Of a stretch of 26,027 nucleotides of DNA, positions 5,477-22,638 are shown piece by piece. The stretch covers positions 1 through 26,027 of IMG/VR virus record IMGVR_UViG_3300042566_000753, one strand, 5' to 3'. This DNA comes from a virus. A program made the translations under genes and the position numbers. Numbering within the stretch: the first letter of the stretch is position 1; each line of letters opens with the position of its first letter. The notes under the pieces are model-generated. The model ran no database searches, was not told the origin of the DNA, and worked only from the letters and a program-made list of their open reading frames with translations.

Positions 5477-5980
5477 TTAATTCGGGCTTTTAATCTTTAC
5501 TACATTAACATAATCGTTTACACTACTATCCCACAAATCAATCAATTCGTTTAATTTATTCACTTCAAATAATTCACCTTTTCCAGGCATTTTCATTTCA
5601 GTTTGTATTGTCTCTATTTTAGACTTTATATACCTTTCAAATTCAACTGCTCCGCCGGCTTGTAGTTTTTGCTCCTTTATTATTTCAATCAATTTAAAAT
5701 CCTCAGCTCCGTTATATCTTTTTTCACTGAATCTTTGTTGAATTGTGTTTTTTGTATAACCCACTTTAATATAGTCTATTCCTTTATATTGTATCTTAAT
5801 TAAATAAACTCTATGCTCACCATAAATCCCCATTGCCGTAGTCCAAAGGTAGTCAATAGTTTCCGGGTGCGTTTCCATTAATTTATTTAAAAGATATTTT
5901 CTTTTGTTTATATCCCCACTACTCTGCCATTCATTATATAATTCAACTCGTATGTCCTTTACATCATTAAACCAATTCAT
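5477..5980 (-). CDS. GIY-YIG-superfamily (T5orf172/MUG113-like) protein
   Basis: 167 residues, starting MNWFNDVKDI. The core at about 57-140 reads HRVYLIKI...DYIKVGYTKNTIQQRF, then a Glu-containing helix (VEFERYIKSKI) and GELFEV. This is the order of the GIY-YIG superfamily branch typified by T5orf172: Y-x-K-V-G-x-T, Arg 83, and a helical Glu near 113-115. The N-terminal 50 residues are helical and of unknown role. Likely a DNA endonuclease domain protein. Which substrate it cuts cannot be told. Confidence 0.7.
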   Translation of the reverse strand: MNWFNDVKDIRVELYNEWQSSGDINKRKYLLNKLMETHPETIDYLWTTAMGIYGEHRVYLIKIQYKGIDYIKVGYTKNTIQQRFSEKRYNGAEDFKLIEIIKEQKLQAGGAVEFERYIKSKIETIQTEMKMPGKGELFEVNKLNELIDLWDSSVNDYVNVVKIKSPN

Positions 5981-5992
5981 AATTTATTTTAT

Positions 5993-6310
5993 TTAACCTA
6001 ATGCGACATATCTTAATTTGTCAATGAATATATCCATGTTACTAATTTCCTTTTGTGTTATATAGTATATGCGTCCGTTGCTACTATGTAATTTGAAATA
6101 CGTTCCCAATTCATTTTTTTGTGCCGGCTCTCTATTCAATATTACAGTTATTGCATATTTCATATTAGATAATTCAAATTTGTATTGATATTCACTTGCA
6201 GCATAATTTATATTATCAATATTAAATTGTTCCTCAATTCTTGCAACATAAAAGTTTTTCTTGCCCAATGTCTTATGGTTTAACTTATTTAAGTTTTGTA
6301 TCGTTAACAT
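5993..6310 (-). CDS. L-T-I-x-N family protein, member 1
   Basis: 105 residues. It begins MLTIQNLNKL, the signature shared with four other full-length proteins in this window. The middle is beta-rich with YQYKFELSN and a short stretch ILNREPAQ; the end (MDIFIDKLRY) is the family's final helix. No outside family recognised. It starts 3 bases after the stop of the upstream gene and belongs to the same run. Role unknown. Confidence 0.78.
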   Translation of the reverse strand: MLTIQNLNKLNHKTLGKKNFYVARIEEQFNIDNINYAASEYQYKFELSNMKYAITVILNREPAQKNELGTYFKLHSSNGRIYYITQKEISNMDIFIDKLRYVALG

Positions 6311-6883: not shown

Positions 6884-7231
6884 CTAAAACGGGTTATTAA
6901 AGTTTGTATTACCCGTTGTTTGCTGTGCTTTTGGTTTACATTTTACTATCAATGATTCAAATATTAATGCAGTTAGTTCAAATGATTTTAATTTTCTACC
7001 TGCAATCCAATCTCTACAATATTGTACCGTATTCAATCCATCCCTTAATACTATTTCATATTCGTTTATTATTGTTCCCTGTCTAAATATTACTATTGTA
7101 TAAGGTGCCTTATTATACGCAACTCTAAAAGTATATTCCGTTTCGGTTTCAATTACATCACCTATCATAAACTCTTTATAGTGATGCGACCAACTTTCTA
7201 ACTTTTTATAGTTCTTTATTGTCAAACTCAT
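6884..7231 (-). CDS. L-T-I-x-N family protein, member 2
   Basis: 115 residues, starting MSLTIKNYKKL, one residue longer at the start than most members and closest in that part to the protein at 22330-22638 (MKLTIKNYEKL). The middle has YTFRVAYN and YTIVIFRQG, matching the family's beta-strand pair. The end differs: after SFELTALIFESLIVKC comes a polar, N/Q/T-rich tail. Its first 26 bases overlap the end of the gene at 7206-7361. Function unknown. Confidence 0.78.
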   Translation of the reverse strand: MSLTIKNYKKLESWSHHYKEFMIGDVIETETEYTFRVAYNKAPYTIVIFRQGTIINEYEIVLRDGLNTVQYCRDWIAGRKLKSFELTALIFESLIVKCKPKAQQTTGNTNFNNPF

Positions 7232-7361
7232 ATACTAAATAGTTTTGTTCTTTATGTGTTTCAACTCTTGTCGGTTTTGTATGTAGTAAACTATCTGCTG
7301 ACAATTCAATTTCATTTTTAACAATCATTTCAATTGTCCTTTGCATGTATATTATTTTCAT
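7206..7361 (-). CDS. Small hypothetical protein coupled to uvsE
   Basis: 51 residues: ATG at 7361, TAA at 7208-7206, starting MKIIYMQRTI. Its start overlaps the uvsE stop as ATGA, the classic arrangement for translational coupling. Its end overlaps the next gene by 26 bases. Acidic and basic residues alternate; there is no membrane segment. The coupling supports a real gene, but no function can be assigned. Confidence 0.65.
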   Translation of the reverse strand: MKIIYMQRTIEMIVKNEIELSADSLLHTKPTRVETHKEQNYLVYEFDNKEL

Positions 7362-8245
7362 ATAAACTTTATTATTGCTAAATCTTTTTGTTTTGCTTCA
7401 ACCATAATGTCCACGTCCATATCGTATGTATTGGGGATGGCATTAATATAATCGGAATGTGCTTGCGGTTTAAGTTTTGTATTGTTTTCATGTAATGCTT
7501 TACTTTCGGAATAATGAACTGCCGGTGTTATACCTTTCGGCCACGTTGTAATTGCTAATGCCAATGCATCTCGTTCACTTAAATCTCCTGTGTTAAATGT
7601 GTGGTGGTGATAATCAAATACAATAGGTATGTTAATCTTATTATGAATATACATTAAGTCTTTAACTGAATACATACTTGCTTTGTCATCATTTTCAATT
7701 GTTAGTCTACTCTTAACTGAATTAGATAGTTTGTCAAAGTTATTACAAAACCTATCCATTGCTGCAATCTTGTCACCATACACTCCGTTGCAATGTATAT
7801 TAATTTTGTTGTAAGGTGTTTTAGACAAATTCATTGCGTCCATAATTCTACCATGCACTTCCAAATCTTTGATTGTATTCAATACCACATTTTCTTTTGG
7901 TGAAACTAATACATTGAAAGGTCCTGGGTGAAATGATAATCTTTGTTTATACTTTGTTGCCTTTGCACCACATCTTTGTAGTATCTTTTGTATTTCGTTC
8001 CAGTCTTTTAATTCAGTAAATTCGTATTCAGTTGCCCACGGAAACATCTCACTACTCATACGATACATTTTAATTCCGTTTTGTTCGTTCCAGTCTATAA
8101 TCTTTTCTAGGTCTGCAACATTCTGCAATACCAAATCCGATACATAGTCAATACCCTTTGCTATGAAAGTTCGTTTGACCATTGTCCTATTCGTTGTAAT
8201 CTTTTTACCTAATGAAAGGTTAATACATGCATATCCTATATTCAT
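7358..8245 (-). CDS. uvsE: UV DNA damage endonuclease
   Basis: 295 residues. UvsE/UVDE nicks DNA 5' of UV photoproducts (pyrimidine dimers and 6-4 products) to start excision repair, using a TIM-barrel metal site. The start IGYACINLSL is the family's N-terminal signature, so I place the ATG at 8245 rather than 9 codons earlier. Downstream are RMSSEMFPW, RLSFHPGPF, NIHCNGVYG, LTIENDDK, VFDYHHH and PAVHYSES, which carry the metal-binding His, Glu and Asp residues in family order. Length suits the family. A promoter-like site ends 6 bases before the ATG, predicting a leaderless or nearly leaderless message. Phages carry uvsE to repair their own genomes. Confidence 0.93.
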   Translation of the reverse strand: MNIGYACINLSLGKKITTNRTMVKRTFIAKGIDYVSDLVLQNVADLEKIIDWNEQNGIKMYRMSSEMFPWATEYEFTELKDWNEIQKILQRCGAKATKYKQRLSFHPGPFNVLVSPKENVVLNTIKDLEVHGRIMDAMNLSKTPYNKINIHCNGVYGDKIAAMDRFCNNFDKLSNSVKSRLTIENDDKASMYSVKDLMYIHNKINIPIVFDYHHHTFNTGDLSERDALALAITTWPKGITPAVHYSESKALHENNTKLKPQAHSDYINAIPNTYDMDVDIMVEAKQKDLAIIKFI

Positions 8246-8251
8246 ATAGTA

Positions 8252-8281
8252 AATATACGACAAATTTTTCACTTTACCAAA
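8252..8281 (-). promoter_or_regulatory. Bacteroidota-type promoter directly before uvsE
   Basis: On the minus strand: TTTG (8281-8278), 20 bases, TATATT (8257-8252), then TACTAT and the uvsE ATG. With the -7 box this close, transcription should begin at or next to the ATG. The block TTTGGTAAAGTGAAAAATTT continues as GTCGTATATT, nearly identical to the sites at 499-529 and 13076-13105. Confidence 0.75.
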
Positions 8282-8551
8282 TTAGATAGTCTGCATGCAA
8301 ATGATAATCTTGTCCGTAGTATCAAACTCATTCGTATTTAACCAAAGGGTTTTATTGTTATACTCCATTATATACATTCCGTTATCGGTTTGCTTTCTAT
8401 GTAGTAATATTGTTTCTACTGCCGGTTTTATAGTAGCATCATATCCTAATGTAAATTCGTAGTGGTCTTTATGTTCTTTAACTCCAATAATATTAAACAC
8501 TTCGTTGTATTCTTGTCCGATTAACTTTTGTGGGTTTTTTATTGTTAGCAT
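8282..8551 (-). CDS. L-T-I-x-N family protein, member 3
   Basis: 89 residues, starting MLTIKNPQKL. The pattern matches the family: YEFTLGYD strand, ILLHRKQTDNGMYIMEYNN (the conserved R-x-x-x-x-N-G-x-Y region), then a short acidic and helical end. It overlaps the next member (8545-8811) by 7 bases and ends exactly at the uvsE promoter. Role unknown; a small cytosolic single-domain protein is likely. Confidence 0.8.
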   Translation of the reverse strand: MLTIKNPQKLIGQEYNEVFNIIGVKEHKDHYEFTLGYDATIKPAVETILLHRKQTDNGMYIMEYNNKTLWLNTNEFDTTDKIIICMQTI

Positions 8552-8811
8552 AACAATCTTTTTATTTGTTTACAAAAGGTATCTATATTTTGTATGTCTG
8601 AAAATTTCAAATACAAAGAATAATTGCCATGTGATATTGTGTATTTACCTCGTCTACTTTTCATACGATTAAGTTTTAAGTCTCTACATTGGCCTTTGCC
8701 ATCTATTAAACTAATATGATAATTTGTGTGGCCACAAACCATTGACTTAACACGAAAGGAATATCCTATTGGATATCTAACTATTTTATCTAAATTATTT
8801 ATTGTTAGCAT
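8545..8811 (-). CDS. L-T-I-x-N family protein, member 4
   Basis: 88 residues, starting MLTINNLDKI. More basic than its neighbour (RMKSRRGKYTI). It keeps the N-terminal signature, a GKYTISHGNYSLYLKFSDI segment and the final helix IDTFCKQIKRLL, which resembles MDIFIDKLR at 5993-6310. It lies 2 bases after the lipoprotein gene and overlaps member 3 by 7 bases: a tandem pair of diverged paralogues. Confidence 0.8.
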   Translation of the reverse strand: MLTINNLDKIVRYPIGYSFRVKSMVCGHTNYHISLIDGKGQCRDLKLNRMKSRRGKYTISHGNYSLYLKFSDIQNIDTFCKQIKRLLC

Positions 8812-11850: not shown

Positions 11851-12045
11851 TTATTTTGTATTTTGTTTTGTGTTTTCTATTGTTTCATCTTGACTAACTA
11901 CTTTTGCCTTATACATTTGTCTAATTATTTGACCCAACTGCAGGTCAGTAGTATTTTCGTCTAATATAATTTCTTTACGAATGGTTAAATATTGTTTTGC
12001 TTCTTCTGCCCATTCTATTATTTGTTTTGCGTATCTTTTATCCAT
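11851..12045 (-). CDS. Small hypothetical protein
   Basis: 64 residues, starting MDKRYAKQII. Helical, with a charged start and a polar tail rich in N, T and Q. Its ATG overlaps the stop of the SPFH gene (TAATG), so it is probably made in a fixed ratio to that protein. Function unknown; a partner of the SPFH protein is conceivable from coupling alone. Confidence 0.7.
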   Translation of the reverse strand: MDKRYAKQIIEWAEEAKQYLTIRKEIILDENTTDLQLGQIIRQMYKAKVVSQDETIENTKQNTK

Positions 12046-12584
12046 TATATATCAGTTGGTAATATTGTTGTTTTATGTCCCTCATCGCCAAATATTCTAA
12101 AACTTTTTACTAAACCTAAATCGGTTATAGTTACTGCTTCAACTTCAATACCCCACTTAACTACATACTCTTTAACTTTCTTAGTTATCGTTTCATTGAC
12201 ATCAACCAGGTCATCCCACGTTGTCAATTCCACTACATCCCTAATCATTCCCTGTGTCGTATCAATCAATACATCATTTGCGTGCATTACACTTAATAAA
12301 TAAGTTCTTACATTACTAACTCTATATCTTATAATTGATTTCAATACAATACTTTGTTCGTCTAATGTAGTTAGGGTTTGTGAGGGTAAATTTACCGATT
12401 GAGTAATAACAGGCGTTTCCATTATACTATCAAAAAATGGTATTTTAAAATAAATACCACTATATAATGTGTTTATATATTTACCAAATCTTAAATGGAC
12501 TGCCTCATTCCATTCTTCTATAATTACAAAGGGCATCAACTGATACCCAAATCTTTCTATTAACGCTACTAATTTATCAAACAT
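12045..12584 (-). CDS. SPFH/band-7 (stomatin-prohibitin-like) protein
   Basis: 179 residues. Residues 18-145 match the SPFH core: VIIEEWNEAVHLRFGKYINTL, then GIYFKIPFFDSI, VNLPSQTLTTLDEQSIVLKSIIRYRV, then helices ending VVKWGIEVEAVTITDLGL. The N-terminus (about 8-22) has a short hydrophobic stretch that may dip into the membrane, as in stomatins; the long coiled coil of full-length family members is absent. SPFH proteins scaffold membrane complexes and control FtsH-type proteases. Here it sits between a 64-residue gene (overlapping stop) and a cell-wall peptidase gene 6 bases upstream. Confidence 0.85.
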   Translation of the reverse strand: MFDKLVALIERFGYQLMPFVIIEEWNEAVHLRFGKYINTLYSGIYFKIPFFDSIMETPVITQSVNLPSQTLTTLDEQSIVLKSIIRYRVSNVRTYLLSVMHANDVLIDTTQGMIRDVVELTTWDDLVDVNETITKKVKEYVVKWGIEVEAVTITDLGLVKSFRIFGDEGHKTTILPTDI

Positions 12585-12590
12585 AATTTT

Positions 12591-13070
12591 TTATTTTATT
12601 CTACCGGCCCCTCTATATGCTTTTTTATAATTGGGCTCATTTAAACTACTAATCTTTACACCTTCATATTTGTTGGATGCATGAACAAACATTGTTTCAC
12701 CTATGTAAGTTCCACAATGCCATCTACTAGGTGATACTTTACTTTTGAAAAATATCAAATCACCAACTTGTAAACTATCTTTTTTTATTCTAGATGTGGT
12801 TTCCCATTGTGTTGCGCAAGTATTTTCTATATTGATTTTATATACATCTGCTGCCAATCGTTTGTTGAATTGAGAACAATCAATTCCCCTTTCAGTATTT
12901 CCACCCAATTTATATGGCTTTCTTAACCAATAAGTAATAAAAGTATTTAATGTAGTATCATTACTAAATTTTGGTTTCAATTCAAACACTTCGTTGGTTT
13001 GAGATTTTACAAATATAGGTAGTATTACTACTAATATTGTAATAAAAATAAACTTATTTATTGTTTTCAT
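12591..13070 (-). CDS. Secreted NlpC/P60 cell-wall peptidase
   Basis: 159 residues. A signal peptide MKTINKFIFITILVVILPIF leads to VKSQTN, with cleavage near residue 24. The NlpC/P60 core follows: GGNTERGIDCSQF with catalytic Cys 65, DLIFFKS, RWHCGTYIG with His 118, and MFVHAS with His 130 as third polar residue. The family cuts peptide bonds in peptidoglycan stems. Export suggests it acts in the periplasm, for lysis or wall remodelling. It is the first gene after the terminator and promoter pair at 13076-13140; its ATG lies 5 bases after the -7 box. Confidence 0.9.
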   Translation of the reverse strand: MKTINKFIFITILVVILPIFVKSQTNEVFELKPKFSNDTTLNTFITYWLRKPYKLGGNTERGIDCSQFNKRLAADVYKINIENTCATQWETTSRIKKDSLQVGDLIFFKSKVSPSRWHCGTYIGETMFVHASNKYEGVKISSLNEPNYKKAYRGAGRIK

Positions 13071-14798: not shown

Positions 14799-16019
14799 TT
14801 ATTTTTTAGTAAATTTATTACCATCCCATTCCCAACGAACATTGTCCATTTTATTTGTAGAAAATAAATCTACAAATCCATTTTTATCTATATCTTGTAC
14901 ACGTAAATTGGAAAATCTTTTAGTTAAATTATCATTAAAATATTTTGATGTATTGTCAATAAATTCATTATTGATTGATTCAAATAATTGAACTTTAAAA
15001 ATTGACATGTTATTAGAATAGTTAAAAACTATTATTTCAAATAAAGAATCATTGTTAATGTTTACAAAATCTAAATTAATCACATCCCCAACATCTTTTA
15101 ATTGAATGGTATATGGATTTTTTGCAAAAAATGATTTTCCATTTCCCAACAATATTTTTAATTCATTCTGGTTATTTACTTTATTATTTAAAATCAAATC
15201 TAATACCCCATCCTTATTAATATCAAATAATTCCGATGCAGTTACTGATAAAAATTCTTTTAAAATAGTTGTATCTTGTGTAAAAGACCCGCTACCATTA
15301 TTTATTAAAATTCTATTTTTTACACCATTTCCAATTGGAGGAACTTGGTGCATATTAAACATAATAATATCCAAATCACCATCATTGTCAATATCACCTG
15401 AACATCCAGAATACCAAAATCCTTGCAAATCTATTTCCAATACTTTAGAAAGTCCATTTTTTGAATTAAAAATTAAATGACAATTTTCATTTAATAATGG
15501 ATATTTTACAATCAATGGTTGGTCTATCGCAACCATAGAAAATATGTCTGGCAAAGAATCACCATTAAAATCACCCAATAATATTTTTGTACCATGTGGA
15601 TATTTTATAGGTGGGCCTGTGTATGATTTTCTATCCAATATTCCATTTGAATTATAATAAATAGCGGGTGGTGGATTTGGTGTTGGATTTATTTTTAAAT
15701 CATATCCATCGTAAGAAAAAACATCTTCTAACCCATCTTGGTTCAAATCCAATTGAGTTGATTGCATATCCGTTAATGGATTATTTGTTAAATATTTATT
15801 TCCATTTTCGTATATATCACTACTACTAAACCATAATTCAAAATTTGATAATTCATAGGAAGATTTTATATAATTTTTTTGTATTGGTTTAGTTACATTT
15901 GATATTGGTTTATTAATTAAATCAAAGTTTGATTTTGTTTTCCACCTGTATGTATCTGGAGCGACTTTCTCACACCCGAATATTGTCAATGTGATTATTA
16001 TTACCAATAACTTTTTCAT
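14799..16019 (-). CDS. FG-GAP/VCBS-repeat lipoprotein
   Basis: 406 residues from MKKLLVIIITLTIFGC. This start gives a clean lipoprotein signal with lipidated Cys 16; an ATG 13 codons earlier would bury it. Six calcium-loop units D-x-N/D-x-D/N-G-x-x-D are seen near residues 91 (DLNQDGLED), 149 (DFNGDSLPD), 209 (DIDNDGDLD), 266 (DINKDGVLD), 320 (NINNDSLFE) and 376 (DIDKNGFVD), spaced about 55-60 apart: a beta-propeller of the FG-GAP/VCBS type. Such proteins bind calcium and sugars or proteins at the cell surface. Very rare in phage genomes, as far as I know. It overlaps the end of the upstream gene by 50 bases. Confidence 0.88.
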   Translation of the reverse strand: MKKLLVIIITLTIFGCEKVAPDTYRWKTKSNFDLINKPISNVTKPIQKNYIKSSYELSNFELWFSSSDIYENGNKYLTNNPLTDMQSTQLDLNQDGLEDVFSYDGYDLKINPTPNPPPAIYYNSNGILDRKSYTGPPIKYPHGTKILLGDFNGDSLPDIFSMVAIDQPLIVKYPLLNENCHLIFNSKNGLSKVLEIDLQGFWYSGCSGDIDNDGDLDIIMFNMHQVPPIGNGVKNRILINNGSGSFTQDTTILKEFLSVTASELFDINKDGVLDLILNNKVNNQNELKILLGNGKSFFAKNPYTIQLKDVGDVINLDFVNINNDSLFEIIVFNYSNNMSIFKVQLFESINNEFIDNTSKYFNDNLTKRFSNLRVQDIDKNGFVDLFSTNKMDNVRWEWDGNKFTKK

Positions 16020-16176
16020 ACTCTTTAATTTTTTTTTCAATAAATTCAAAACATTCATTTGGGCCGGTTAAGGCATCATAACTACGATAAGTTTTAATAA
16101 ACTTTTCTAAACCTACATTATCTAAATATTTTTGTAAGTCCTTAACACTTGTAAGGTAGCAATGATTAAATCCCAT
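15970..16176 (-). CDS. Small hypothetical protein
   Basis: 68 residues, starting MGFNHCYLTS. A short helical protein with VKDLQKYLDNVGLEKFIKTYRSY and a C-terminal helix ECFEFIEKKIKEYEKV. Its last 50 bases overlap the start of the FG-GAP lipoprotein gene in another frame. It begins 1 base after the cyclophilin stop. Probably real by spacing, without recognised family. Confidence 0.62.
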   Translation of the reverse strand: MGFNHCYLTSVKDLQKYLDNVGLEKFIKTYRSYDALTGPNECFEFIEKKIKEYEKVIGNNNHIDNIRV

Positions 16177-16177
16177 A

Positions 16178-16609
16178 TTAGATTATTGATATTTTTTTAA
16201 TTTCGTCTCCTGCTTTAATTTCATCAATCACATCTAAACCTTCAATAACTTTACCGAAGCAAGTGTGATTTCCGTCTAAATGTTGAGTGCCCATTCTATT
16301 ATGACAAATAAAGAACTGACTACCGCCTGTGTTTCTGCCGGCATGTGCCATACTTAGGACACCTCTATCGTGAAATTGTTTTGGTGCCGATACCTCACAT
16401 TGAATTGTGTAACCCGGACCACCCGTTCCATTTTTGTTTGGACATCCACCCTGAATTACAAAGTTAGGTATAACTCTATGAAAATTCAATCCATTATAGA
16501 ATTCCTCACGGATTAATTTCTTAAAGTTATTAACTGTGATTGGTGTTTCGTTATCATACAATTCTACTACCATTATACCTTTTGTTGTTTCAATTTTTAC
16601 TTTGCTCAT
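16178..16609 (-). CDS. Cyclophilin-type peptidyl-prolyl isomerase
   Basis: 143 residues, no signal peptide, so cytosolic. Catalyses cis-trans isomerisation of X-Pro bonds. Active-site signature [13 protein letters not shown] with Arg 45, Phe 50 and Gln 53; [19 protein letters not shown] with Met 87, Gln 98 and Phe 99; [15 protein letters not shown] with His 110. Short bacterial-type length (about 145-165 usual). All key residues are present, so it should be active. A phage-borne copy may help fold phage proteins or alter host ones. Neighbours are an acidic hypothetical gene 2 bases upstream and a small gene downstream. Confidence 0.93.
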
Positions 16610-18449: not shown

Positions 18450-18478
18450 AATATACACTAATTATTTGTTATTTCAAA
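18450..18478 (-). promoter_or_regulatory. Promoter-like site before the acidic-protein run
   Basis: On the minus strand: TTTG (18478-18475), 19 bases, TATATT (18455-18450), then TACTAAAAG and 9 more bases to the ATG at 18431. The same two boxes as the other promoters, but the shared internal block is absent. It overlaps the last codons of the lipoprotein gene at 18469-19143. Confidence 0.55.
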
Positions 18479-19143
18479 ATTATTTTCTGATAATTTATGA
18501 TTGAGTCAACTTTATATTTTTCAGAAATTCCATCCGTTTCATATGGATACCAATATTTTACTTTACAAGTAATAATCATTGTATCACCTTTCATTTCCCA
18601 CATTGGAGCTATGACTGTATTTATTTCACCCGTTTTTAAATCACTTTGAGATGTTTTATTTATGGTTGGAACTATTGCATTAACATTTGAAATTAAAGCA
18701 GGTAATTGTGATGTTGTTAATTGACCTGTATATTGATTAAAATATGTTTTTGTAAACTTTACTATTGTTTCACCTTTATTTATCCACCAATATAAATTAC
18801 TTTCCCATTCCACATCTTGACTTGGTCTCGGAGCTGCACCATTAAATAATATCTTACCACTTATTCTATGTAAGTTTTGTGTTTCCATCGAATACAATTG
18901 AAATACCGAATATCCATTATTATCTTTTGGCAATCTTGTATCGATACTAACATCTACATTTGGTTTTTGCAAAGGTTTCCATTCTCTAATGTAATTTACT
19001 TTTTTAAATTCAACACTATTATCGTATATATCGACATCTTTACTACAACCCATAAGTCCTGCTGCCATAAGTGCAAATAATATACATAATGCTAATAGAG
19101 CACTAAGTTTTAAATCTTTTTTATCACTTTCTTTACCTTGCAT
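18469..19143 (-). CDS. Predicted lipoprotein
   Basis: 224 residues from MQGKESDKKD. A charged start, then the hydrophobic LSALLALCILFALMAAGLMGC with lipobox (Cys about 33). The mature part is beta-rich with many Trp/Tyr residues (WESNLYWWINKGETIVKFTKTYF, CKVKYWYPYETDG). No family recognised. An ATG 31 codons earlier overlaps the upstream gene and would bury the signal, so this start is preferred. It begins 1 base after the stop of the SWIM-tail protein gene. Confidence 0.78.
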   Translation of the reverse strand: MQGKESDKKDLKLSALLALCILFALMAAGLMGCSKDVDIYDNSVEFKKVNYIREWKPLQKPNVDVSIDTRLPKDNNGYSVFQLYSMETQNLHRISGKILFNGAAPRPSQDVEWESNLYWWINKGETIVKFTKTYFNQYTGQLTTSQLPALISNVNAIVPTINKTSQSDLKTGEINTVIAPMWEMKGDTMIITCKVKYWYPYETDGISEKYKVDSIINYQKIILK

Positions 19144-19144
19144 T

Positions 19145-19738
19145 TTATTTTGTTTTAGCTTCTCTAATATGTTTACATTCTTTACCACCCGTATATGTGT
19201 AAGATGGACAATCACATTCCCAACTTCCGTTATCATTTTTTACTTTGTATGTAACATTTGGGTCTTTTGAGGATGTCATTGTAAATTCTTTCACTTCGGT
19301 TAATCCTTTCTCTTTCAGTTTTCTTTCAATCAAAGAGTCAACTTGACTATCCGATATCCAACTTGCTCTATTCTTTCTAAACTCCGTAAAGAAATATTGG
19401 TCATCACAAAGTGCATCTAATACTTTTATGGATATATCTTCACCTTCCGCCTGACAAATTTCATATAAAGTTTGTTCGGGTTCTTTTACAAACTTACCCG
19501 TATCGGCATAATCGCCGGCAACAACAATGTTATCACCTGCCCAACTACCTACGATATCGTTTTCACTATGTAAGTCTCCACCACCTCTACCATTTCCGTC
19601 AGCAAGTAATATTGCCAAACCGGCTAATACACCACTTGCGGACATACTAAATTCCATTAACTTACTACCATCACCAAATATGTAAGGTGATATGTATTGT
19701 TTCTTTTTGATATTTACTATCTTATAATATTGTCCCAT
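19145..19738 (-). CDS. MGQYYKIVN-family phage protein with SWIM zinc-finger tail
   Basis: 197 residues. The N-terminal half (MGQYYKIVNIKKKQYISP, FGDGSKLMEF, GVLAGLAILLADGNGRGGG, GSWAGDNIVVAGDY) belongs to a phage family of unknown function that I recognise. After about residue 140 a different tail begins: KDPNVTYKVKNDNGSWECDCPS...CKHI with C175, C177, C188 and H190, the C-x-C-x(n)-C-x-H pattern of a SWIM zinc finger, used for DNA, RNA or protein binding. The same tail is in the protein at 21969-22328. An apparent module fusion. Confidence 0.82.
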   Translation of the reverse strand: MGQYYKIVNIKKKQYISPYIFGDGSKLMEFSMSASGVLAGLAILLADGNGRGGGDLHSENDIVGSWAGDNIVVAGDYADTGKFVKEPEQTLYEICQAEGEDISIKVLDALCDDQYFFTEFRKNRASWISDSQVDSLIERKLKEKGLTEVKEFTMTSSKDPNVTYKVKNDNGSWECDCPSYTYTGGKECKHIREAKTK

Positions 19739-19740
19739 AA

Positions 19741-19944
19741 TTATTTCTTTTTACGTTTGTCATATCCTACTGGGTAATAACTTACTCCATCCAAATTGAT
19801 ATTTAATACTTTGAACCCATTATCTGGGTCAGTTACTTCAATTGCTTTTTCTGCATGTTGAGACCAGACTAATCCATCTAATACGATACGACCATCTTCT
19901 AATCTTCTAAATTCATTCATTTGTGTTGCTACTGTTTGTGCCAT
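19741..19944 (-). CDS. Small hypothetical protein
   Basis: 67 residues, starting MAQTVATQMN. Sequence RRLEDGRIVLDGLVWSQHAEKAIEVTDP is consistent with a short beta-rich fold; the end is basic (YDKRKKK). No signal peptide. It lies 2 bases upstream of the MGQYYKIVN gene. No family recognised. Confidence 0.68.
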   Translation of the reverse strand: MAQTVATQMNEFRRLEDGRIVLDGLVWSQHAEKAIEVTDPDNGFKVLNINLDGVSYYPVGYDKRKKK

Positions 19945-19955
19945 GTTGTTTGTTT

Positions 19956-20372
19956 TTATATTTTGTATAATTTAATCTTTTTTAATTTTGTTTGTTTGTC
20001 ATCTGGGTTAATGAGAATGTCAATTCGTTTCTTATATCGTTTGTTCATTACATCCTTAACTACATATGTCCCACTATACTTACCTGCTCCTTCAATACGA
20101 ACCTTGCTACCAAACTTTAATTTCTTTTTAAGGTCTCTACTCACTGCAATAATTCTATGTCTCTTTGCATTCTTTGTGTCAATCTTAAAACCACTTGCTG
20201 TGATATTTGGTGTTGAGTCCGTTTCGTTTTCACTTGCGGTGTATGTGGTTAGTGTAACGATATCGGGTACTATACCTTCTATCATTTTACTTATTTCCTT
20301 TTCTTTCATTTCCATTTGGTAAGGTAAAAATACCATTACGATTGAAAGTAATATATTGTAATTCATAATCAT
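19956..20372 (-). CDS. 3D-domain (double-psi beta-barrel) protein, probably exported
   Basis: 138 residues. The first 18 residues (MIMNYNILLSIVMVFLPY) look like a signal or anchor; an ATG 2 codons later is an equal start. Residues 34-138 match the 3D domain: TLTTYTASENETDSTPNITASGFKI, IIAVSRDLKKKLKFGSKVRIEGAGKYSGTYVVKDVMNKRYKKRIDI. Three conserved Asp (D46, a K-D before VMN, and the final R-I-D) give the domain its name. Found at the C-terminus of lytic transglycosylases and in Bacteroidota phage proteins; likely to bind peptidoglycan or a saccharide. Confidence 0.82.
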   Translation of the reverse strand: MIMNYNILLSIVMVFLPYQMEMKEKEISKMIEGIVPDIVTLTTYTASENETDSTPNITASGFKIDTKNAKRHRIIAVSRDLKKKLKFGSKVRIEGAGKYSGTYVVKDVMNKRYKKRIDILINPDDKQTKLKKIKLYKI

Positions 20373-20378
20373 AACTCT

Positions 20379-20726
20379 TTAATTTTGGAATGTCCCGCGT
20401 CCCATTTGTTCTTCAATAGCCAATTGTATGTGATTTATAAAGTCATCTTTTGTCTTAATAATATCTCGTCTAAGCCAATTGTCTTGGAATATATAATTCC
20501 CTGTATTACCTTCACCTAATATACATTTTTTCATACTATAACAATCATGTTCCCATTTTAATTCAAATAAAACTACATAATCACCTAATATTCCACCATG
20601 AGGAAATACCCATACCCAATTACTTTTTTCTTTATTTTGTAATTGGTCTAAGTCAGTATGAAAAGAATGTCCATGTATTTCAAAATCCACTGCATCTATT
20701 GTTTCAAAGTTTACTGGTCGTCTCAT
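20379..20726 (-). CDS. Hypothetical protein, possible distant L-T-I-x-N relative
   Basis: 115 residues, starting MRRPVNFETI. Aromatic-rich body (SNWVWVFPHG, YVVLFELKWEHD) then NYIFQDNWLRRDIIKTKDDFINHIQLAIEEQ. The ending (a Lys/Asp-rich turn, then FINHIQLA) matches the strand-then-final-helix order of the L-T-I-x-N family, but the start signature is missing. It lies 6 bases after the gene at 20733-21053, which also seems related. Confidence 0.7.
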   Translation of the reverse strand: MRRPVNFETIDAVDFEIHGHSFHTDLDQLQNKEKSNWVWVFPHGGILGDYVVLFELKWEHDCYSMKKCILGEGNTGNYIFQDNWLRRDIIKTKDDFINHIQLAIEEQMGRGTFQN

Positions 20727-20732
20727 ATTATT

Positions 20733-21053
20733 TTATTTACTATTTACATAATCAATTTGCATTTCTTTTATTCTACCTATTTGCTGACAAAATATTCTTA
20801 TGTCTTTAATGTAATGAATTGGTAAATGTAATTCTTGAGTAGAACAATGTAATGTATACCATGCTCCACCATGACATCTTTTGTCCAATTCAAAATGCCA
20901 TCTTCCACCGGTTCTATTATCACAAAATTCAAATTGATATTGTGAACCTATATCGTTTATATCAACTTTTCTTATAGGTAATCCTAATTGTTTAGTTAAT
21001 ATTTCTTCAAACCTACCTATCAATTGTGGTGAAATTTCAAATTTTAATCTCAT
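20733..21053 (-). CDS. Hypothetical protein, possible L-T-I-x-N relative
   Basis: 106 residues, starting MRLKFEISPQ. It shares with the family a YQFEFCDN strand, RWHFELDKRCHGGAWYTLHC and the final IHYIKDIRIFCQQIGRI helix (compare IDTFCKQIKRLL at 8545-8811). The start differs from the strict signature. Cys and His residues are scattered, without a clear zinc site. 3 bases separate it from the metallopeptidase gene upstream. Confidence 0.7.
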   Translation of the reverse strand: MRLKFEISPQLIGRFEEILTKQLGLPIRKVDINDIGSQYQFEFCDNRTGGRWHFELDKRCHGGAWYTLHCSTQELHLPIHYIKDIRIFCQQIGRIKEMQIDYVNSK

Positions 21054-21056
21054 AAC

Positions 21057-21419
21057 TTATAATTTTCTTTTATGTCTTTCTTCAAATTTATCCTCTACTA
21101 ATTGTGCAGCTTTGGTATATCCTTTATCTTTTAGTAAAATGATTGCAAACATATCAGCAGCAATTTCATCATTGTCGTTTCTATCCTTTGTGTGTTTCAA
21201 CATTATGTGTGCTAACTCATGTGCTTCAACCCACTTCAATTCATCTTTGGTTAACTTCACTTCACCATCAATGAATACACAACCCGAACTTGTCTCAGCA
21301 AAACCAAAACCACACATTTCAAATAGTGGTTTCATTACTTCATATCGGTAGTCATCTTTGGTTAGTATTGCAACTGCAACATCACTTTTGAACTCACTAA
21401 AATATGTTTTCGTTTTCAT
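21057..21419 (-). CDS. HELAH zinc metallopeptidase
   Basis: 120 residues. Zinc motif WVEAHELAHIMLKH with His 67, Glu 68 and His 71; a downstream NDEIAADMFAI, with Glu 85 as probable third ligand, matches the ImmA/IrrE (M78)-like order H-E-x-x-H then E-x-x-A-x-x-F. Cytosolic, one short domain. ImmA-type enzymes cut repressors to switch prophages or mobile elements, so a regulatory protease is one possibility; the target is unknown. It overlaps the upstream gene by 23 bases. Confidence 0.85.
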   Translation of the reverse strand: MKTKTYFSEFKSDVAVAILTKDDYRYEVMKPLFEMCGFGFAETSSGCVFIDGEVKLTKDELKWVEAHELAHIMLKHTKDRNDNDEIAADMFAIILLKDKGYTKAAQLVEDKFEERHKRKL

Positions 21420-21807
21420 AATTACTTTTTGATATTAATACAATATGACAGGGTTCTTTAATTCGTTTTCCACCACCATTTCGTTTACCCCAACCTTGAT
21501 TCGGGTCTCCTTCACTTTGTGTTGTTGGTATTTTACCTGTGAAATACTTTTCTAATACTACTGCGATACCATCACCATCATTATCATTAAACATCATATC
21601 ACATACCTCACCCCATTCCATTTTCCATTCAAACGAATCCTCACAGGTTTTATCTTTGAATACTCTACCATAAGAGTCGTAATGACCTCTCATCTCCTCT
21701 ATAACCTCACCATTTTTTAATAGATACAATCTAACTGCATCACCACTAAAAGAGTCTGATGCAACTGGTAAACCACTTTCTTTACATATAAAACTGAAAC
21801 ATCCCAT
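21397..21807 (-). CDS. MGCFSFICKESG-family phage protein
   Basis: 136 residues from MGCFSFICKESGLP, which I recognise as the beginning of a phage conserved family of unknown function; an ATG 14 codons earlier is not needed. Typical segments follow: DSFSGDAVRLYLLKNGEVIEEM, GHYDSYGRVF, and SEGDPNQGWGKRNGG, then CHIVLISKS near the end. No catalytic motif is evident. The end overlaps the metallopeptidase gene by 23 bases. Confidence 0.75.
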   Translation of the reverse strand: MGCFSFICKESGLPVASDSFSGDAVRLYLLKNGEVIEEMRGHYDSYGRVFKDKTCEDSFEWKMEWGEVCDMMFNDNDGDGIAVVLEKYFTGKIPTTQSEGDPNQGWGKRNGGGKRIKEPCHIVLISKSNYENENIF

Positions 21808-21826
21808 AACTTTATTTTTTAATTTT

Positions 21827-21988
21827 TTATAATTCTTCAATAATTCCAAAACATTCTGCTACAAAGAATAAACATCCACCAATGAATATATCTCCAAACA
21901 TAAATGCCGAACAACCCAACATTCTAATACCCGATTTCAATACACTTATTCTAAAATGTTTTGAACTTTTACTTTCTTTTAACTCCAT
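21827..21988 (-). CDS. Small membrane protein (53 residues)
   Basis: Starts MELKESKSSKHF at 21988. A basic N-terminus is followed by hydrophobic segments about residues 18-50 (IRMLGCSAFMFGDIFIGGCLFFVAECFGII), enough for one or two crossings. It overlaps the end of the SWIM-tail gene by 20 bases. Longer frames upstream would run deeper into that gene, so this start is preferred. Function unknown. Confidence 0.65.
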   Translation of the reverse strand: MELKESKSSKHFRISVLKSGIRMLGCSAFMFGDIFIGGCLFFVAECFGIIEEL

Positions 21989-22328
21989 CTTTTTTATTTT
22001 TAATTTGAATAATGTGTTTACAATCTTTACCTCTACTAAACCCATGTGCGGGACAACTACAACTCCAAAATCCCTCATCATTTACTACCTTATATACATT
22101 GTCTTTACTTCCTTTGACTTTGTATTCAATTTTCACTTCGGTCTTTTTGAACTCTTTTGGTTTTATGTAGTCAATTTTATCCCACATCTTTTCTAATTCG
22201 TTCCAACTATACCATCTATTTACTTCTATCCATCCACTACTTTCTTTACCACCCGTGCAGACAATCCAAGTCTTTTTTGACATTGGAGACTCAAAACATA
22301 TCGGGGGTAATGCTGATTTAATTCTCAT
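21969..22328 (-). CDS. SWIM zinc-finger protein
   Basis: 119 residues from MRIKSALPPICFES. A first part with WIVCTGGKESSGWIEVNRWYSWNELEKMW is unfamiliar. From about 65 it reads KVKGSKDNVYKVVNDEGFWSCSCPA...CKHI with C90, C92, C103 and H105: a SWIM finger with the same lead-in as the protein at 19145-19738. The start lies 1 base after the upstream stop; an ATG 9 codons earlier would overlap it. Likely a nucleic-acid- or protein-binding adaptor. Confidence 0.8.
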   Translation of the reverse strand: MRIKSALPPICFESPMSKKTWIVCTGGKESSGWIEVNRWYSWNELEKMWDKIDYIKPKEFKKTEVKIEYKVKGSKDNVYKVVNDEGFWSCSCPAHGFSRGKDCKHIIQIKNKKDGVKRK

Positions 22329-22329
22329 A

Positions 22330-22638
22330 TTATAATAATTTTGGTTTCCATTCATCAGTCATTAATTTAAGTTTGTCCATTAGACTATTTATATTCACTA
22401 TGTCCTCATGCTTTATCCAATAGGGATATCTTACACACATTGCTTCATTACTCCATTTTCCAATTTTGTAATAACCATTTTCTACCGGCCTTCTTTCTAA
22501 AATAATAAAATGTCTCATATGTTCTCTCCATACATTAATTCTATATTCATTCCTATTTTCATCAATGTCCTCAATGTAGTTTTTATCATCCCATTCTTTA
22601 CGGAATAGTTTTTCATAATTCTTTATAGTCAATTTCAT
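22330..22638 (-). CDS. L-T-I-x-N family protein, member 5
   Basis: 102 residues, starting MKLTIKNYEKL, almost the same start as the member at 6884-7231 more than 15 kb away. Middle: EYRINVWREHMRHFIILERRPVENGYYKIGKW (the R-x-x-x-x-N-G-Y region shared with 8282-8551), then WIKHEDIVNINSLMDKLKLM, the family's final helix. This member is among the most complete. Function unknown. Confidence 0.8.
   Translation of the reverse strand: MKLTIKNYEKLFRKEWDDKNYIEDIDENRNEYRINVWREHMRHFIILERRPVENGYYKIGKWSNEAMCVRYPYWIKHEDIVNINSLMDKLKLMTDEWKPKLL

Follow-up and report, generated by a model that had tools for sequence, protein, structure and literature searches.

Two virus proteins with a common C-terminal tail

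The DNA analysed here, referred to as the window, is the whole of the 26,027-base virus record IMGVR_UViG_3300042566_000753 of the IMG/VR database. It encodes two proteins, P1 and P2, which end in the same short segment of SWIM zinc-finger type (the tail), and a third protein, P3, which is tailless in the window and has family members in related phages that bear the same tail. The features concerned are listed by window position.

19148..19738, minus strand: P1, MGQYYK-family protein of 197 residues with a C-terminal SWIM tail
19304..19738, minus strand: N-terminal MGQYYK domain of P1, residues 1-145
19148..19294, minus strand: SWIM-type tail of P1, residues 149-197
19169..19216, minus strand: P1 motif C175-x-C177-x10-C188-x-H190, predicted zinc ligands, invariant in 20 aligned tails
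21972..22328, minus strand: P2, 119 residues, short N-terminal domain (PPxxF...WxxVxRxYSWxELExMW) and C-terminal SWIM tail
21993..22130, minus strand: SWIM-type tail of P2, about residues 67-112
22014..22061, minus strand: P2 motif C90-x-C92-x10-C103-x-H105, predicted zinc ligands, invariant in 42 aligned P2 proteins
20382..20726, minus strand: P3, 115 residues, tailless
19956..20372, minus strand: conserved neighbour (cluster c4), located near the second tail carrier in relatives by synteny

The preliminary description of the window had claimed that P1 and P2 end in the same SWIM tail and that their N-terminal parts are unrelated, and both claims were borne out. The two frames are present on the minus strand, and a BLASTP alignment of P1 and P2 was restricted to their C-terminal parts, with 33 of 76 positions identical and 48 of 76 similar (E value 5e-14). 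Profile-profile comparison of the N-terminal parts of P1 and P2 gave no relation (probability 0.4%), and the N-terminal part of P3 was likewise unrelated to those of the other two. The start of P2 proposed earlier, MRIKS, is the one conserved in relatives. Both tails contain the core CxC-x10-CxH; upstream of it P2 reads N-V-Y-K-V and P1 has one extra residue (N-V-T-Y-K-V). Residues S9, Y16, W25, C27, C29, P30, and C40-K-H-I43 (numbered as in the first aligned row) were identical in 20 of 20 aligned tails.

At the DNA level the tails of P1 and P2 in the window are 68.6% identical, which lies inside the range of codon-shuffled controls (mean 60.0%, maximum 72.7%). DNA similarity is therefore undemonstrated and the relation is old; the likeness is one of protein and profile. 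This result touches on what the preliminary description had named as speaking against a shared tail, namely a lack of similarity at the DNA or profile level: similarity is present at the protein and profile level. The DNA likeness falling within the control range would fit an independent origin of the tails, in which CxC...CxH zinc motifs converged without a common ancestor. This origin is, however, extremely unlikely, as the likeness spans about 45 residues past the ligands (YxV..D.G.W, CP, CKHI..K) with the E value given above, and a single profile retrieves all carriers.

No near DNA match to the first 25 kb of the window and no match to the P1 protein were found among 50,697 phage records. 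The close relatives used for comparison were all IMG/VR virus contigs. A lipoprotein-like gene at 18469-19236 (minus strand) has an open frame that runs over the end of P1; its true start probably lies at about 19143 (MQGKESDKK, judged by eye).

Assignment to the SWIM domain and predicted fold

SWIM domains are found elsewhere in SWI2/SNF2 ATPases, transposases, and kinases, and the domain was reportedly first described by Makarova, Aravind and Koonin in 2002. With the Pfam SWIM family (PF04434), P2 scored 19.9 bits, above the curated cut-off of 19.6. At an E value of 0.1 or lower, the same family matched 41 of 42 P2 proteins and 10 of the 18 members of an alignment of MGQYYK proteins (alignment A5), 11 of which are tailed. 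NCBIfam matches were far under their cut-offs. In the structure models, each tail has two strands and then a helix, as expected for SWIM: strands 163-169 and 172-175 and helix 189-196 in P1, and strands 78-84 and 87-90 and helix 104-110 in P2. Searches of solved structures with the P1 sequence gave no match, and a structure comparison with solved chains returned nothing for P1 and a single entry for P2 (Z 2.1).

The tails thus have in common with the SWIM domain the CxC-xn-CxH core, the predicted strand-strand-helix order, and a profile match, and like it they are an add-on to unrelated proteins. They differ from known SWIM domains in that their carriers are short phage proteins, and P1 represents a sub-threshold variant. 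We are very confident that the tail is a modular SWIM domain. Zinc binding, predicted from the motif and the strand-strand-helix model, is highly probable as well: the tail would fold around one zinc ion, with the invariant residues C, C, C, and H as putative ligands.

The MGQYYK family exists with and without the tail

We scanned for the MGQYYK domain of P1 alone, blind to the tail, and obtained 22 loci, of which 11 were tailed and 11 tailless. All 11 close loci (at least 76% identity) carried the tail and all 11 distant ones (40-63%) lacked it; eight of the distant records were searched whole, and the tail was found nowhere in any of them. Within the reach of these scans, the tail is universal in the near MGQYYK group and absent beyond it. 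In alignment A5, the tailless proteins, with a total length of 118-159 residues, stop where the tail starts, and all 18 members share the blocks MGQYYK...G.G.KL.EF and GNGxGGGD..G.W.GD..GDY. A further tailless form, which has an insertion, is gp76 of mycobacteriophage EasyJones. The earlier statement that this family occurs without the tail is therefore correct, and universality of the tail in the MGQYYKIVN family, which would have spoken against a movable tail, is not what these 22 loci show. Given the even split, the tail defines the family neither way.

Among phage protein families, phrog_35050 matched residues 1-41 of P1, with an E value of 1.9e-5 for the whole protein, and phrog_3156 gave weak matches from tailless homologues; both belong to the MGQYYK phage family, which is Bixzunavirus gp76-like. 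Relative to this family, P1 and its near relatives carry the SWIM tail in addition; in the mycobacteriophage form there is a long insertion, and the tail is missing. In the codons of the P1 tail, the rate of nonsynonymous substitution was lower than that of synonymous substitution in 21 of 21 pairs (seven sequences), showing purifying selection. One relative (L010, 5678-6500) contains, directly after P3, an MGQYYK gene without about the first 25 residues and with a disrupted tail frame; it is a decaying copy or an assembly fault.

The P3 and P2 families and the distribution of tails

The tail profile, applied to the frames of 141 loci plus the window (142 sequences in all), recovered 80 distinct tail-positive frames, a number that includes the broken P1 of L010 and one 39-residue fragment. 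Eight of the 80 belonged to the P3 family, besides P2-type and P1-type proteins. A tail-blind scan with P3 gave 15 loci, nine tailed and six tailless. P3 is tailed in one group of related phages and tailless in the window and its relatives. In an alignment of eight tailed and 12 tailless P3 proteins (A9, which omits the copies of L010 and of L015, the latter cut by the contig end), the tailless members end shortly ahead of the tail start. In one 237-kb record a tailless and a tailed P3 adjoin, and at L018:5258-8239 (record G013) there are three P3 copies; two of the three adjoin, and one has a diverged tail whereas the other two are tailless. For P2, scanning with only the N-terminal part as query yielded 46 loci, every one of them tailed.

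Of 46 records searched whole with the tail profile, 38 have the tail. It is on P1 in 11 of them (nine with a tailed P2 too), on P3 in another 11 (each with a tailed P2), on P2 alone in 14, and on other proteins in two. In the two P1 records without P2 (G006 and G020), P1 lies near a contig end. P1 and P3 were both tailed in none of the 46 records. The MGQYYK domain was present in the 11 P1 records and in eight tail-free ones but in none of the 11 P3-tail records, and tailless P3 was present in nine of the 11 P1 records. Many of the 46 records are closely related, and these counts are therefore not independent events. In a tree of seven shared proteins, phages with a P1 tail and phages with a P3 tail part once (support 99); with a larger marker set and three P2-only records added, this split was lost and most supports were low. 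These data are best read as one switch, or as mosaicism of the genomes, rather than as repeated exchange.

We also considered that P3 and the MGQYYK protein had been exchanged in front of a resident tail at the same slot, as both second carriers lie downstream of c4. This idea was dropped: P3 lies ahead of genes c8 and c10 in the P3-tailed record L166 and P1 lies after them in the P1 records, and the tail tree described below does not join P1 with P3 tails.

Other partners and phages carrying the tail

The preliminary description had proposed a search for the tail alone and a list of its fusion partners. Two scans of viral contigs with the bare motif, allowing nine or seven residues between CP and CKHI, gave at least 238 motif-bearing frames in at least 236 loci (numbered from L216 on). 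At least 233 of these frames matched the tail profile at E < 1e-3, and the five that failed at this threshold were left out. The partner parts of the tail-positive frames fell into at least 42 clusters, at least 10 with two or more members, by single-linkage BLAST at E 1e-3, a count that shifts with the threshold. Among the matches listed there were short proteins of 66-80 residues with little beyond the SWIM-type domain, proteins that start with the domain, and large families too.

Named carriers include Sinorhizobium phage Phosso protein 463, a Methanobrevibacter virus, ANMV-1, and Nodularia phages. The Phosso protein is a different short protein with a tail of this kind on its C-terminal side; its N-terminal part looks unrelated when judged by eye. 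Two proteins of uncultured Caudovirales phages in BFVD/UniProt, named by their SWIM-type domain alone, align with the window proteins: A0A6J5MEX0 with P1 (214 columns, 48% identity) and A0A6J5MA62 with P2 (113 columns, 52% identity). In bacterial genomes the scan gave one locus, a frame with a CxC...CxH stretch of related sequence on an Acidimicrobiales contig. Matches to Vibrio phage PVA7 (E value 0.3) and Ochrobactrum phage OC (E value 2) were rejected as chance, the motif being absent in the matched frame; three matches to Corynebacterium phages were weak (E value 6). The idea, formed by eye, that the N-terminal part of P2 is related to a marine family that also precedes the tail was unsupported (profile comparison probability 0.3%). 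A 419-residue frame at L428:7135-8391 has a SWIM-like motif near its N terminus and is perhaps of transposase type, judged by eye.

A search of the open literature, with most subscription journals outside its reach, found no paper that deals with SWIM tails in phage proteins. SWIM fusions are already known in general; the contribution here is the partners and their pairs with and without the tail.

Age and mobility of the tail

A tree built from 73 tails grouped the P1 tails together (support 97) and likewise the P3 tails (support 88); the P2 tails made up the remainder, mixed with a few others. DNA identity between P1 and P2 tails averaged 65.6% within genomes (eight pairs, as P2 is truncated in L150 and absent from L157) and 64.6% between genomes (152 pairs); for P3 and P2 tails it was 69.5% within versus 68.3% between genomes. 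As identity within genomes equals that between genomes and the tails group by carrier, each fusion is old, and tail and carrier have since been passed on together.

These data bear on the possibility that the tail arose recently as an internal copy and hops from gene to gene within one phage genome by recombination or gene conversion. Such hopping would suit carriers that lie only a few kb apart and a second carrier that varies between related phages, but it would not leave P1 and P2 tails as different within a genome as between genomes, nor a tree ordered by carrier, and we regard it as very unlikely; the equal identities led us to reject recent P1-P2 shuttling. The "movable" tail of the preliminary description is accordingly retained in part. 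The tail is a separable module, since MGQYYK proteins occur without it and it is found on P3 and on dozens of other partners. Recent shuttling was not apparent, the tail is fixed in the close relatives (11 of 11 MGQYYK loci), and tails cluster by carrier, so that the term applies to long time scales.

Possible role of the tail

We consider it probable, taking the parts together, that an ordinary SWIM domain serves these phages as a detachable C-terminal docking tail with nucleic acid or protein as its putative target. The SWIM domain is a detachable module on unrelated N-terminal parts, and it may act as a docking surface taking small, otherwise non-binding phage domains to a nucleic acid or protein complex. 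P2 was tailed at every locus scanned, and related phages have the tail on either the MGQYYK protein or P3 as well, never on both in the records searched. This suggests that one further tail-bearing partner beside P2 is enough.

That docking is the job of the tail is slightly favoured, by what is described for SWIM proteins elsewhere. Tolerance of DNA damage is said to depend vitally on the SWIM domain of human SWS1 (PMC12167799), transcriptional activation is associated with the C-terminal SWIM domain in proteins of the FAR1 type (PMC13306707), and SWIM-associated SWI2/SNF2 ATPases are mentioned for phages (PMC5512222); the title of Rieger et al. 2012, cited in PMC13072407, names the SWIM domain of MEKK1 as a receptor for c-Jun. 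Nucleic acid and protein appear about equally likely as the target. Mean net charges were -6.1 for the N-terminal part and +2.0 for the tail of P1, -6.6 and +1.5 for P3, and +3.0 and +5.4 for P2, a pattern that fits nucleic-acid binding of the tail.

Several observations weigh against this account. P1 scored 14 bits with Pfam SWIM (E value 0.037), under the cut-off; the structure models are of moderate confidence, with a mean predicted local distance difference test score of 79-80 and a predicted template modelling score of 0.44 for P2, and the fold is a prediction; and the tail profile gave no match in a sequence-based search of solved structures. The P3 tail is positive in only five of eight proteins, the charge difference in P1 and P3 is small, and the N-terminal part of P2 is itself positive; nucleic-acid binding is therefore weakly supported. 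The carriers are all uncharacterised proteins, and the mutual exclusion of P1 and P3 tails may reflect a single historical event.

The tail might instead have a purely structural role: as a zinc-stabilised terminus it would help a small protein to stay folded or stable, and it would have no ligand to bind. The carriers are indeed small, proteins of 66-80 residues with little beyond the domain occur, and, while the motif is conserved, the tails of P1 and P3 are weakly charged. Tailless homologues of P1 and P3 are, however, maintained, the same tail on many unrelated parts favours an added interaction, and SWIM domains elsewhere serve interactions, MEKK1 being an example according to the title cited above. 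A purely structural role is thus unlikely in our estimation. Docking, the role we prefer, could also take the form of a shared address label, with one docking surface, one host or phage target, and a changing set of small proteins; P2 together with either the MGQYYK protein or P3 would then reach the same place. We regard this extension as doubtful.

At present the work amounts mainly to an orderly account of a common domain fusion. It nevertheless offers a handle on the function of uncharacterised phage proteins: the MGQYYK and P3 proteins, existing with and without the tail, are natural controls for what a SWIM tail adds, and if the tails share one target, that of P2 would explain many small viral proteins together.

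Other genes of the window

Small proteins encoded on the minus strand at 22330-22638, 8282-8551, 8545-8811, 6884-7231, and 5993-6310 have the start M..LTI(K/Q)N..KL in common and, judged by eye, form a paralogous family scattered across the window. A UV-damage endonuclease UvdE is encoded at 7361-8272 (minus strand; Pfam E value 2.2e-65), and there are nuclease-like genes, both on the minus strand, of the GIY-YIG type at 1390-1728 (E value 3.3e-6) and of the T5orf172 type at 5480-5980 (E value 1e-5). Lying among phage genes, all on the minus strand, are those for a Band 7/SPFH protein (12045-12584), an NlpC/P60 protein (12591-13070), an FG-GAP repeat protein (14802-16058), and a cyclophilin (16178-16609).

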